Virus record (IMG/VR): IMGVR_UViG_3300022074_000201
Coordinates: 1-32,584 of that record
DNA: 32,584 bases
Strand: one strand, 5' to 3'
Source: a virus
Made by a program: the position numbers and the translations under genes. The notes below the pieces were generated by a model. The model was not told where the DNA came from, ran no database searches, and was given only the letters and a program-made list of their open reading frames with translations. Shown piece by piece: positions 10,987 to 14,732 of the stretch (the stretch's first letter is position 1; every line of letters starts with the position of its first letter).

Positions 10987-11592
10987 TCACCCAAGTTTTG
11001 AATATCTTTTGAAGTGTTGCTTTGATCCATTTGGAAGTTCATTGACTGATCCATCAACAAGATCCTGTCTGTCTTCATAGGAAGAAAGAACTGCTTTTTT
11101 CAGACCAATAGTGATCCCATTTGGGATGCTTGTATATCCTGCAACATAAGTGACTTTCAATCTAATTCTTGCAAATGGATATTCACTGTCATAAATCTGA
11201 TTCATGACCAATGTATCACCTGTCAAGTAGTAGTCAGATCCTGAAGTCAGTGTTGTTTCTGATCCATCATCATCCACTGTCTTCACACTTGTGATGCTTT
11301 GAACAGGAAACAATGGAAGACCAACCCTTTTCCCAAAACTTTCAAATTCTGCAACAACTGATTTTTCAATCAACTGAAATGAATATGTTTGTTCAGTAAT
11401 ATCAATGACTTCTGCAACAAGATCAGCAATCAGGGAATCATCAGTTGATGTATCAACTTTCATCCATGCTTTTGCATCAGCAGTTGGCAATACATCTGTG
11501 GATGCATTTGTTCCTGTTTCTGTTGTAGTAACAGTCACAACACCATTCCGACCATAGTCAGGTGTAGAAAGTGAAGCCCTAAGAAATGCCAT
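10987..11592 (-). CDS. gp6-like head-tail connector protein (Ad1)
   Basis: A 201-residue protein with the gp6/gp15 connector pattern: ADAKAWMKVDTSTDDSLIAD with a following EVIDITEQTY helix, a central strand region (VGLPLFPVQSITSVKTVDDD), SDYYLTGDTL, then a RIRLKVTYVAGYTSIPNGIT stretch followed by a C-terminal helix GLKKAVLSSYEDR. The D-D-x-L-I-x-x-L-I-x-x-A, P-V-x-S-I and Y-x-A-G-Y-x-x-x-P motifs are the family signature. It forms the adaptor ring under the portal. The gene overlaps the preceding 95-aa gene by 14 bases. Confidence 0.9.
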   Translation of the reverse strand: MAFLRASLSTPDYGRNGVVTVTTTETGTNASTDVLPTADAKAWMKVDTSTDDSLIADLVAEVIDITEQTYSFQLIEKSVVAEFESFGKRVGLPLFPVQSITSVKTVDDDGSETTLTSGSDYYLTGDTLVMNQIYDSEYPFARIRLKVTYVAGYTSIPNGITIGLKKAVLSSYEDRQDLVDGSVNELPNGSKQHFKRYSKLG

Positions 11593-11866
11593 TGTTCAAT
11601 TCCTCAACAAGTTTTTCTGCTTTCGTTTTGGGTAATCTGTCAATGATTTGATTTCCCTTTTTCACATAGTACATTGTCTTTGTGTTGTTGTCCTTTTCCA
11701 TGTGATGCTTTGCAGTATTGGAATAAGGTCTTTTGTCTTCTTTTGAAACATACAACAAACCCCTTTCCAACATTGAATTCATTTCATTCTTTGGTGCAAC
11801 AAAAGGATCATCAATTTTGTATGGTGTTGATTTGTACCTGAAATTTTTTCTGCATCTGTACTTCAT
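11579..11866 (-). CDS. Small basic protein after the capsid gene (95 aa)
   Basis: I start this gene at the ATG 11866-11864 (MKYRCRKNFRYKSTPYKIDD). An upstream in-frame ATG at 11944 would translate through the tRNA-like hairpin into an atypical hydrophobic leader, so it is unlikely. The protein is basic at its start, has no membrane segment and includes KTMYYVKKGNQIIDRLPKTK. Small proteins at this place in HK97-like genomes are often capsid-associated or connector helpers, sometimes with a Rho-N-like fold, but no family is evident here. It overlaps the connector gene by 14 bases. Confidence 0.65.
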   Translation of the reverse strand: MKYRCRKNFRYKSTPYKIDDPFVAPKNEMNSMLERGLLYVSKEDKRPYSNTAKHHMEKDNNTKTMYYVKKGNQIIDRLPKTKAEKLVEELNNGIS

Positions 11867-11893: not shown

Positions 11894-11937
11894 AAGGATG
11901 GCAGGGAATCGAACCCTGCCAAGTTCCAAACATCCTT
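11894..11937 (-). ncRNA. tRNA-like minihelix (acceptor plus T-arm) after the capsid gene
   Basis: Read on the minus strand, 11937-11894 starts with AAGGAT, has a 10-11-base bulge, then a 7-bp stem GGCAGGG/CCCTGCC closing the loop TTCGATT, and ends with ATCCTT, which pairs with the start. The loop matches the tRNA T-loop consensus TTCRANY exactly, and the coaxial stack (7 + 6 bp) matches the length of an acceptor plus T-arm. D-arm and anticodon arm are absent, so it is not a decodable tRNA. It fills the 80-base gap between the capsid stop (11947) and the next start. A U-rich tail (CTTCTTTTCTT) follows, so a partial terminator is an alternative. The RNase P substrate idea is inference. Confidence 0.45.
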
Positions 11938-11946
11938 GTGGCAATC

Positions 11947-13176
11947 TTATGAATTACCTGCGTTCTGTATAGCAGTTGTAAAGTTTCCAAATGCACCTGC
12001 ATTAGGCAAGTAAGTTGGAAGTGCTAAACGACCACTGATCTGTACAGTCACAAGATCTTTGACAACATTGTCCTGATCTTGCTCATAAAAACGAACCTGC
12101 ATTGATTCACGATCAAATAAGGTTGTCAACTGTGCGAAGTCAGCAATCAAGAAGTCATCAGCATCACCATCAGTGTCATTTATTGCATTGGTTGCAATAA
12201 TAGGAACACCACGAACAATTGGGCTTCTTGTACCAAACACAACATCATTTGGGAAGATGTAGCGACCATCAGCATCTTTTCGTCTGATCATTTCATAAAA
12301 ACGACCAATTCCCATCATGATTGCAGATGGTCGATAGTTTCTATTTTCGATCTGCTTGATAGCTTCAAGAATTACATCATGTTCCTGTGCATCTGCATCA
12401 CCTGTGTACAGGTCAAGTGCATAGTCAGTTGAAGTCACAGTCAGTCCATAAGTACTGTCATAAAGAAGATAAGAATCTTCCTCTTTCATGTACTTTTCCA
12501 TTCCACGAAGTGAAATGTGACTTGCAAGACCCGCAGTGTCATTCAGTGCTTCTTTAGAAACTCTGAAGTGTGCAGAAATCTTTTCAACAACAGCATCAGT
12601 TGCAGTCAAGTCAAAGTCATTCTGTCCTGATGCATCACCTTCAGCAGTCACACCTGTATTGTCAGTGAAGTTGCTTTCTTTGATATATCGGATTTTGTCA
12701 CTGTTGGTTGTTCCTGTTGGTAAGAATTGACGAACATGAACCTTTCGTTCTGCATCGTATTTCATACCTGCAACATAGTCAGCAGGCACAACATCACCTG
12801 TGTATGCATCTGCTTCAGTGATGACTGCTTTGGTATTCATTGTGAAACCTGAAGTCTGACCTGCTTTGAAAGCCTCGATCATGTCTTGTGTTCCTTTTGA
12901 TTCCAATGCTTCTTGCATTTTAGAACGGAATGATCCACCATTGCTTCCTGCACCCATTCGGTTTGCAGATTTTTCAATTGCTTCAATTCGTTCTTTTTGG
13001 CTTGAAATCATAGATTCTATGTTCTTGATTTCATTTTTGGTGGCTTCATCAGCAACACCTGCACTTTTAACTTCTTCCTGAAGTTTTTCATATCGGCTTT
13101 CCAAATCAGATTTCAAGCCATCCATGTGACCTTTCACCGATTCAAGACCTTCTGATAACGTTTTTTCTAAGTCCAT
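11947..13176 (-). CDS. HK97-type major capsid protein
   Basis: A 409-residue protein with the HK97 layout. Residues 1-~75 form a charged coiled coil (delta/scaffold domain, EGLESVKGHMDGLKSDLESR), then a Gly/Asn-rich linker near 75-82 and the capsid fold from ~110 on. Typical segments are VVPADYVAGM, ISAHFRVSKEALND, MMGIGRFYEMIRRKD and FPNDVVFGTRSPIVRGVPII, with DFLIADFAQLTTLFDRESMQ toward the end. The delta domain should be removed by the protease encoded just upstream, with which it overlaps by 10 bases. Arginine is mostly CGT/CGA here, while neighbouring genes prefer AGA/AGG; such codon choice is common for the most abundant protein. A tRNA-like hairpin follows the stop. Confidence 0.95.
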   Translation of the reverse strand: MDLEKTLSEGLESVKGHMDGLKSDLESRYEKLQEEVKSAGVADEATKNEIKNIESMISSQKERIEAIEKSANRMGAGSNGGSFRSKMQEALESKGTQDMIEAFKAGQTSGFTMNTKAVITEADAYTGDVVPADYVAGMKYDAERKVHVRQFLPTGTTNSDKIRYIKESNFTDNTGVTAEGDASGQNDFDLTATDAVVEKISAHFRVSKEALNDTAGLASHISLRGMEKYMKEEDSYLLYDSTYGLTVTSTDYALDLYTGDADAQEHDVILEAIKQIENRNYRPSAIMMGIGRFYEMIRRKDADGRYIFPNDVVFGTRSPIVRGVPIIATNAINDTDGDADDFLIADFAQLTTLFDRESMQVRFYEQDQDNVVKDLVTVQISGRLALPTYLPNAGAFGNFTTAIQNAGNS

Positions 13177-14732
13177 TTTTCAAATGATTTTTGGATTGAT
13201 ATTTTATTGTTGAATTGTTCAAACATCTTTTGGATCATATCGGCTTCATTTTCCAAAGTGATACTGTCTTGAATCGGCTTTGCATCCTGAAGTGATTTTC
13301 TGAATGTTTCTTCAAGGTGTTTGATTTGTTTTTCAATAAGCAAGAAAGTGTCATCTGTATAGTCACCTTCATACCATGCTTTTGAAAGTCTTTTGTATTG
13401 ATCAACTGCATCTTTGTGGCTTCCCTTAGCCATTCCACCAAGTGCCATTTCATTTGCACCCCATGTCACTGTTGATCCTTCCCACATCTTACATTCTTTG
13501 ACAATGTAGCAATCATCATTGTTTGAATATTCTCTTTGAACAAAGTTGATGCCAACACTGTGTTCTTTCAAGACACCATCTCTGTACAACTTTAGAACAT
13601 CAGTTCCAAGTTCAGTGTCTGTGATCATCGTCTTGAAATAAAGTCCTTTTTCATCTTCCATCAAAGTCATTGGTTTTCCAAGAACCATCAATGGATCATG
13701 TTGATACAAGTGCATGATTCTATTTTTTCCACCTGCACCATTTTCTTCAATAGTCTTTTTGAATGCACCCTTGATCAGAACATCACCATCAGAATCTTTG
13801 AAATCAAAGACACTGAAATATCCTTCAACAAGTCTTCTGTCAATGTCAACATCCTTAATGGATGAAGATGAATTTTTTAATACATATGGTAAGTCCATAG
13901 ATTTTCCCTGTCTTTGTTCTTCAAGTTCAATGTTTCTTTCATGACTACTGCAAGCCATGAAAAATGTTTCACCATCCATTGTGTGTGTATGTGTTCCTGT
14001 ACAACCTAAGAAATCAGCATATTCTTCTGCTTCTTCTCTAGTTCTAAAATAAGACAATTGTTCATTCTTTTCTTCATCATAATCATATGACTTTGATGAT
14101 TGTGGATGACCTTTAGGAAGAAGATCTGTGTCATGTTTCCCTGATTTGAACTTGCCATTTCTCAAACAGTACAAAAAACTGTTGACTCTGCCCATTGCCC
14201 ACTGATTTGCAGATGTCACATTTGGTCTGACTGATTGTGGATTTGTTCTGTATGCACCAAGACCTCTGTCATAAACCTTTTTCAGTGTGGTGGCAGTTGT
14301 TCTTTTTGAAGCAACATCACCAACATCATCATTGTGTTCTTTTGCTTTTTCTCTTAGTGTGTCAATCAATGCTTTCAGTTCTTTAACTGATCCACAATCA
14401 CAGTCATCACAGTCAGGACACATTGATTTCTCCTCATCAATTTGTTTTGATTTTCTTATTGCCCAATCAACACCTTCTGTGCCACCCCATGCATCCCATG
14501 CAACACCACCACATCCTTCATCATATGGAACATCCTTGTTCTGTCTGTGCCTGTTGAATTGTGCCATTCTTTTCACAACATCTGCTGATAATGCTTCACC
14601 ACTTGCAAGTTGTCTTGCTCTTGCAAAACCAACTTTTGTCAGGCAGTTTCTTGGATTCCCTGATTCCTCAAGGTACTTCAATGCCCTTCTTGCGTTTGAT
14701 GATGCTTTTTTTGGATAATCTTTGTATGTCAT
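13167..14732 (-). CDS. Composite prohead protease (521 aa)
   Basis: The C-terminal half carries an HK97 prohead protease (S78 type): DRRLVEGYFSVFDFKDSDGD at ~298-317, the likely catalytic His345 in YQHDP and Ser392 in EHSVGI. It matures the capsid by removing the delta domain. The N-terminal ~200 residues hold another domain often seen in phage head genes: NCLTKVGFARARQLASGEAL, RMAQFNRH (residue ~55-62), VAWDAWGGTEG (77-87), then after a Cys-rich linker (CPDCDDCDCGS) the block DRGLGAYRTNP...WAMGRVNSFL. A GCTGTHTH...FFMACSSHE block follows near 243-265. The usual stand-alone protease is about 200 residues, so this is more than twice as long. It has its own promoter upstream and overlaps the capsid gene. 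Confidence 0.88.
   Translation of the reverse strand: MTYKDYPKKASSNARRALKYLEESGNPRNCLTKVGFARARQLASGEALSADVVKRMAQFNRHRQNKDVPYDEGCGGVAWDAWGGTEGVDWAIRKSKQIDEEKSMCPDCDDCDCGSVKELKALIDTLREKAKEHNDDVGDVASKRTTATTLKKVYDRGLGAYRTNPQSVRPNVTSANQWAMGRVNSFLYCLRNGKFKSGKHDTDLLPKGHPQSSKSYDYDEEKNEQLSYFRTREEAEEYADFLGCTGTHTHTMDGETFFMACSSHERNIELEEQRQGKSMDLPYVLKNSSSSIKDVDIDRRLVEGYFSVFDFKDSDGDVLIKGAFKKTIEENGAGGKNRIMHLYQHDPLMVLGKPMTLMEDEKGLYFKTMITDTELGTDVLKLYRDGVLKEHSVGINFVQREYSNNDDCYIVKECKMWEGSTVTWGANEMALGGMAKGSHKDAVDQYKRLSKAWYEGDYTDDTFLLIEKQIKHLEETFRKSLQDAKPIQDSITLENEADMIQKMFEQFNNKISIQKSFEKWT

Follow-up and report, generated by a model that had tools for sequence, protein, structure and literature searches.

The window analysed here is a stretch of viral DNA of 32,584 nucleotides (IMG/VR record IMGVR_UViG_3300022074_000201, positions 1 to 32,584), which encodes on its minus strand an HK97-type major capsid protein and, downstream of it, a 95-residue protein without a family match; the genes surrounding the gap between the two are all on that strand, the gene after the capsid gene beginning at 11866. 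The gap behind the capsid gene contains, on the coding strand of that gene, a 44-nt tRNA-like minihelix (minus strand 11937-11894) that reads AAGGATG TTTGGAACTTG GCAGGG TTCGATT CCCTGC CATCCTT. It is made of an acceptor-like stem of 7 bp, a linker of 11 nt and a T-stem of 6 bp capped by an exact TTCGATT T-loop (7+6 bp). A sequence-only reading of the window had described a 44-base element with a perfect T-loop, a T-stem and acceptor-type ends at 11894-11937; the coordinates are right, the element being on the minus strand, and the description is borne out by 65 of 65 relatives and by covariation, as set out below. The features of the locus, with the evidence for each in brackets, are as follows.

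11947-13176, minus strand: major capsid protein gene, HK97-type (phrog_10, E 2e-39; PF05065)
11940-11958, minus strand: hairpin GGTAATTCATAAGATTGCC, separated from the minihelix by 2 nt; its loop contains the capsid stop codon, 11947-11949 (fold; kept in the capsid group through compensatory changes or shifts of the pairing)
11894-11937, minus strand: tRNA-like minihelix, 44 nt, 13 bp, 7 acceptor-like and 6 T-stem (sequence; 65 relatives at the homologous site; covariation; model R1)
11931-11937, minus strand: acceptor-like stem, 5' strand AAGGATG (sequence, covariation)
11920-11930, minus strand: linker TTTGGAACTTG (TTTGGAA invariant in the capsid group; GG enrichment)
11926-11927, minus strand: GG in the linker, proposed mimic of D-loop G18G19 (GG enrichment)
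11914-11919, minus strand: T-stem, 5' strand GCAGGG (sequence, covariation)
11907-11913, minus strand: T-loop TTCGATT (TTCGA invariant in alignments A1 and A2)
11901-11906, minus strand: T-stem, 3' strand CCCTGC (sequence, covariation)
11894-11900, minus strand: acceptor-like stem, 3' strand CATCCTT, the last T being the N73 position and pairing with the A at -1 (sequence, covariation)
11893, minus strand: C at the tRNA C74 position (conserved among distinct 13-bp elements)
11579-11866, minus strand: next gene, 95 aa, without a family match, its ATG 27 nt past the minihelix (ORF and family search)

The T-loop of the window copy is that of the tRNA consensus and agrees exactly with the tRNA-elbow pattern, TTCRANY closed by a G-C pair on the T-stem. 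Comparable structures arise at a level of 3 per 5.6 Mb of shuffled sequence, and the occurrence of the minihelix is far above chance. The covariance model search that had been suggested for the element, carried out with model R1, gave the minihelix as the single match in the window (65.6 bits, E 3e-13) and found further copies elsewhere. ARAGORN called no tRNA in the window, and likewise none at the array copies described below; Rfam at gathering thresholds returned nothing on the window, RF00005 included. No cloverleaf with D and anticodon arms is called, as first described; the place of the D arm is taken by a linker that carries a conserved GG.

In nearest-neighbour folding a rival fold of the window copy is better by 1.7 kcal/mol for the copy alone and by 4 kcal/mol with its flanks, because the GGA of the linker can pair with the TCC of the acceptor strand; docking of the linker GG into the T-loop is a term absent from the folding energy model. 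The tRNA-like fold is the (nearly) minimum-energy fold in only 127 of 189 distinct copies.

Conservation and covariation at the capsid site

A search of IMG/VR with the window capsid protein yielded 79 loci. The minihelix lies directly behind the capsid stop, with its T-loop kept, in 65 of the 65 loci in which the capsid is 64-100% identical and the contig reaches past the stop (L015, a contig that ends 10 bases past the capsid stop, is left out of this count). Ordinary hairpins lacking the T-loop, which the sequence-only reading had set against its own proposal, are absent from these close relatives and occur only at loci with capsids 25-40% identical, where the minihelix is missing and plain GC hairpins are found, mostly followed by T-runs. 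Among sequenced isolates we found no capsid relatives of >60% identity, and a search of 395 Bacteroidota genomes with the window capsid gave no match.

Twelve distinct minihelix variants occur at the homologous capsid site. Their acceptors (AAGGATG/CATCCTT, AAGGAAG/CTTCCTT, AAGGAAA/TTTCCTT, AAGGAAC/GTTCCT) and T-stems (including GCAGGG, GTAGGG, GAGCGG, GGGTGG and GGGCGG) change on both sides, while TTTGGAA in the linker and TTCGA in the T-loop are constant through all 12. In the alignment of these variants 97.4% of cells pair, there are 26 double-sided changes compared with 8.1 +/- 2.0 in shuffles, and all slid registers fail the pairing test. It is this alignment of the homologous capsid-linked site (A2) that constitutes the unbiased test of covariation; the members of alignments A1 and A3 were picked for perfect pairing, so that their 100% pairing is selected. 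Throughout A1, TTCGA plus the flanking GG/CC is unchanged. Covarying stems, together with constant TTTGGAA and TTCGA, show that selection maintains a folded RNA bearing a T-loop, and the existence of a conserved tRNA-elbow RNA is almost certain.

The capsid group has a second hairpin, which ends 1-2 nt before the minihelix and holds the capsid stop in its loop (11958-11940 in the window). Its non-coding arm tracks the coding arm (GGTAAT/ATTACC, GGTAAC/GTTACC, GGTAAT/ATTGCC), divergent members form the hairpin with different bases, and folding upstream of the minihelix has a mean z of -2.3. At six loci (L006-L008, L029, L030 and L077) the segment of the stop-codon hairpin is doubled (AAAATTGCCCAACGGTAATTCTTAAAATTGCCC) just past the capsid stop, with two arm copies before the minihelix.

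tRNA-like features of the linker and acceptor end

A GG is present in the linker of 13 of 14 independent perfect elements that lack TTTGGAA versus 9 of 50 controls (p=4e-7), namely 4 of 33 sites that lie in tRNAs and 5 of 17 imperfect ones; the frequency was judged on the earlier, unfiltered set alone, because later scans demand a linker GG. The linker variants atGGt, aacGGt, ctGGca and ttGGaa resemble D-loop cores. In tRNA, G18 and G19 of the D-loop dock on positions 55-56, and by analogy we infer that the linker GG may dock into the T-loop in the same way.

At the tRNA C74 position, outside the helix, a C is present in 70 of 75 distinct 13-bp elements. The copies of one contig, L430, end N73-CCA; CCA is absent from most other copies, and C75 is mostly absent. 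The stacked acceptor and T-stem of tRNA comprise 12 bp; most classes of minihelix, including that of the window, have a stack of the same 12 bp, to which an N-1:N73 pair may be added, and the actinophage class has 11 bp.

A wider family at gene boundaries

Two patterns relaxed in different parts were used, one without acceptor letters (TTTGGAA N8-10 GGTTCGANTCC), run on viral contigs and bacterial genomes, and one without TTTGGAA (AGGA..GGTTCGANTCC..TCCT), run on viral contigs. Matches to the latter were mostly real tRNA 3' halves; after removal of the ARAGORN tRNAs, >70 sites are perfect 12-13-bp stacks, with wholly different acceptors (AACCCTG/CAGGGTT, AGATTAG/CTAATCT, AAGATAGT/ACTATCTT, GCCTAC/GTAGGC). 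The genes upstream of minihelices are varied, being of capsid, SPFH-domain, ssDNA-binding/peptidase-like and no-function type, the names other than capsid and SPFH being read from sequence without a family search. Three contigs (L337, 238 kb; L339, 65 kb; L394, 245 kb) carry copies directly behind an SPFH/band-7 gene, the nearest annotated relatives of which are in crAss-like and Lak phages; the stretches examined around the SPFH gene in crAss/Lak isolates contain no minihelix.

Over all loci, 183 distinct minihelices were collected. At least two are present at 47 loci, with mixed strands in none of the 47, and with model R1 some contigs show several copies. The 69-kb contig L430 has 12 copies within about 4 kb, behind nearly each ORF (BLASTN of this array against phages gave no match), and L431-L434 have 4-8 copies each. 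Arrays are also present in cultured phages, i.e. the mycobacteriophages Konstantine (7 copies), Predator (6) and Papyrus (12) and the Streptomyces phage Joe (7); none of these copies is annotated. A second model, R2, built only from the 11-bp class, finds copies in L430 and in the cultured cyanophage Syn5 that are absent from its training set. The podovirus Syn5 has a single copy (L438, 19839-19884) between scaffold gene 38 and major head gene 39, which thus precedes the capsid gene, unlike the window copy, which follows it.

Model R1 found one match in 247 Bacteroidota genomes, a locus with an element identical to that of a viral contig, and R2 found one match in 246 genomes from the phylum to which the Streptomyces genome G043 belongs (L501, G468:C1:328256-328298, possibly in a prophage). 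With one match in each set, the minihelix family looks essentially viral. Stretches of Bauer, MonChoix and Goe3 that had been flagged by short T-arm matches contain no minihelix, and one odd candidate in Lactococcus phage 712, beside predicted tRNAs, was set aside as probably a decayed tRNA.

In the annotated stretches of the four actinophages Konstantine, Predator, Papyrus and Joe there are 32 sense and 0 antisense copies. Minihelices occupy 29 of the 37 gaps of at least 60 nt versus 0 of the 17 gaps shorter than 35 nt in the same stretches (Fisher p 2e-8), which were chosen because arrays are there, such that 29/37 is not a genome average. The typical actinophage copy lies 6-15 nt past a stop codon and 30-50 nt ahead of the next start. 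A copy in Papyrus (L447, 2609-2650; NC_022053.1, about 38608-38649) contains the annotated start of gp46 (38639), the start codon of which is therefore probably annotated too far upstream. For copies of the AGGATAG/AGATTAG type (L431 14398; L432, minus strand, 6205; L433, minus strand, 9756; also L333), the upstream stop codon TAG is the end of the acceptor 5' strand, which would make folding or cutting and complete translation mutually exclusive. A hairpin of 5-8 bp, varied in sequence and without a U-run, lies 3-5 nt downstream of most minihelices in every array phage examined, and downstream folding has mean z values of -1.7 to -3.3. L434 has a real tRNA gene (13853-13924) on the same strand a few kb downstream of its minihelix array, a proximity that may show a relation of tRNA punctuation to minihelix punctuation.

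The GG that resembles a D-loop core, the stop-codon hairpin and the widespread occurrence go beyond what had been read from the window. The family is large, lies between genes in many unrelated phages and is apparently undescribed: we found no Rfam family for it and, in the open-access literature (subscription papers and preprints being outside the search), no paper describing it.

Discussion

From long transcripts that many genes share, phages make dozens of proteins in controlled amounts, and how this is done without terminators is often unclear. We consider it probable that the minihelix is a tRNA-elbow mimic that is cut by host tRNA-processing enzymes, RNase P in the first place, with the separation of mRNAs as the result. 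The phage mRNA would contain a stripped-down tRNA mimic, in which an acceptor stem is stacked on a T-arm and the linker GG is docked into the T-loop; the elbow of a tRNA and a tRNA-like end would be presented in this way with neither a D nor an anticodon arm. As host tRNA-processing enzymes would measure the distance from elbow to acceptor end, the polycistronic message would be cut at the minihelix, by RNase P on the 5' side and, close to N73/C74, on the 3' side by a further nuclease such as RNase Z. The flanking hairpins suggest two designs: at the capsid site, the cut would leave a capsid mRNA that ends in the stop-codon hairpin, which may shield its 3' end, and in arrays the downstream mRNA would begin with a hairpin, which may shield its 5' end. 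The sequence-only reading had proposed that an acceptor/T-arm stack acts on the capsid message; this RNA-processing part is strengthened, short of proof, by the sequence comparisons, and such a role would fit the placement behind stop codons, the covariation, the invariant T-loop, the GG, C74 and the arrays. Points that we count against cutting are the 11-bp stack of actinophages, the lack of CCA in most copies and the rival fold of the window copy. The window copy also has an A-1:U73 pair, and with pairs of this kind RNase P tends to cut one base further upstream, in line with the observation that N-1/N73 pairing can raise cleavage at that position (PMC10465520).

Other parts of the sequence-only reading fell away, i.e. 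that the element is an attachment site or the remnant of a tRNA gene. Like att cores, the minihelix does resemble the 3'-terminal third of a tRNA, but its stems covary under selection, up to 12 copies occur in one genome, inside structural operons, the homologous site falls among the block of structural genes in many phages, no integrase match was obtained among the window proteins scanned (part of the ORFs), and the sampled Bacteroidota genomes do not carry the element, the single R1 match being virus-identical. Covariation and arrays refute such an origin for the family, and we regard it as practically eliminated. It is highly improbable that the minihelix is an intrinsic terminator of the capsid transcript, even with a window T-arm plus TCCTTCTTTT that passes a terminator pattern scan and distant relatives that have an ordinary hairpin and U-run at this place: at least five T within the 8 bases past the element are present in only 5 of 64 relatives (59 of 64 being without a U-run), the 3' acceptor strand varies with its 5' partner instead of keeping T, and there is no terminator reason for the conservation of T-loop and linker, as the earlier remark that a plain terminator would hardly need the T-loop anticipated.

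The remaining alternatives concern what a tRNA-like fold might otherwise do. The element might be retained as a 3'-end cap, the transcript being trimmed from the 3' side, perhaps with CCA added, and the upstream mRNA protected in the manner of plant-virus tRNA-like structures; copies 0-15 nt past stop codons, stable stems, the conserved C74 and the CCA of the L430 array are in keeping with this. Capping is nonetheless unlikely, since the hairpins 3-5 nt past array copies imply a role of the downstream RNA end as well, the capsid group already has a 3' end from a separate upstream hairpin, and arrays behind nearly each gene suit cutting better. We give still less weight to a released RNA of about 44 nt acting in trans, e.g. 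as an anticodon-less decoy for tRNA-modifying or -processing enzymes, EF-Tu or a defence nuclease; an elbow with an acceptor end is what many tRNA-binding proteins read, and arrays would supply many copies, but the strict placement at gene borders and the diverse single-copy cases (capsid group, one per genome) need no trans-acting RNA, and the flanking hairpins would be left unexplained. A translational role, in which the minihelix, from its place between stop and start, would act on termination, on reinitiation or on the recycling of ribosomes, might be suspected from the closeness of stop codons, which lie inside the acceptor strand in some phages and in a hairpin loop in the window; it is very unlikely given that the next start is usually 30-50 nt off and that a minihelix is never present where genes overlap or are separated by a short junction, the places at which coupling happens.

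Returning to cleavage by host enzymes, we lean, if only slightly, towards a general reading in which minimal tRNA mimics form a phage-wide RNA family that serves as gene-by-gene punctuation of polycistronic mRNAs, cut by host enzymes and paired with protective hairpins, and that spans unrelated viruses, including the podovirus Syn5, actinophages, capsid-linked phages of the window type and contigs with crAss/Lak-like genes. If this is true, the control of protein amounts in phages would have a general explanation in widespread tRNA-shaped cut marks at the borders of genes, the minimal substrate that RNase P accepts in the test tube would be in natural use on a large scale, many unannotated gaps of 60-100 nt would be explained, and phages would have a general mRNA-processing system analogous to mitochondrial tRNA punctuation. 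The presence of arrays in cultured phages of Mycobacterium smegmatis mc2 155 and Streptomyces coelicolor makes these proposals testable at once, and the minihelix may be of use as a compact module for polycistronic constructs.

Comparison with known tRNA-like RNAs

With permissive Rfam scoring on the gene strand, the best structured match to the window copy is mascRNA-menRNA (RF01684; 17.4 bits, E 0.18), aligned end to end across the acceptor and T-arm, and this family is also the best structured match to Konstantine copies (18.6-19.1 bits); neither the window copy (17.4) nor the Konstantine copies (up to 19.1) reach the gathering threshold of 42.5 bits. The window copy matches tmRNA (RF00023) at just 8.7 bits, and only across 17 bases of its T-arm. 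In mascRNA/menRNA, a tRNA-like fold in a long transcript acts as an RNase P signal (PMC11693755). These 3'-end processing signals of the MALAT1 and MEN-beta lncRNAs share with the minihelix an acceptor and T-arm that are part of a longer RNA, and D and anticodon arms that are weak or lacking, but are from animal nuclear lncRNAs, have a 56-nt model with small extra arms and do not form gene-by-gene arrays; a common origin is not demonstrated.

Viral tRNA mimics include the plant-virus structures of the TYMV type, with the TYMV tRNA-like structure being an RNase P substrate (PMC11143913), but those are genome 3' ends of RNA viruses with a pseudoknotted acceptor. Among phage RNAs, C4 antisense RNA, M3 RNA and T4 gene 32 mRNA are known substrates of host RNase P (PMC11143913); they are, however, unrelated individual RNAs and not a recurring intergenic family. 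In mitochondria, structures that border genes in polycistronic transcripts are cut marks (PMC3471875); both those and the phage elements are at gene borders, but the mitochondrial marks are real tRNAs, whereas the phage marks are minihelices without an anticodon.

Bacterial RNase P RNA cleaves model substrates composed of an acceptor and T-stem-loop, e.g. pATSer, contacting the T-loop, the RCC end and N-1 (PMC10465520). The reduced architecture of pATSer is that of the minihelix, but pATSer is artificial and has an RCCA end, whereas the natural minihelices add a GG linker and are mostly without CCA. RNase P measures from the elbow along the stack of T-stem-loop and acceptor (PMC4919913). This measuring from the elbow, together with the model substrates, the phage substrates and mascRNA/menRNA, makes punctuation by host tRNA-processing enzymes the best-supported explanation of the minihelices.
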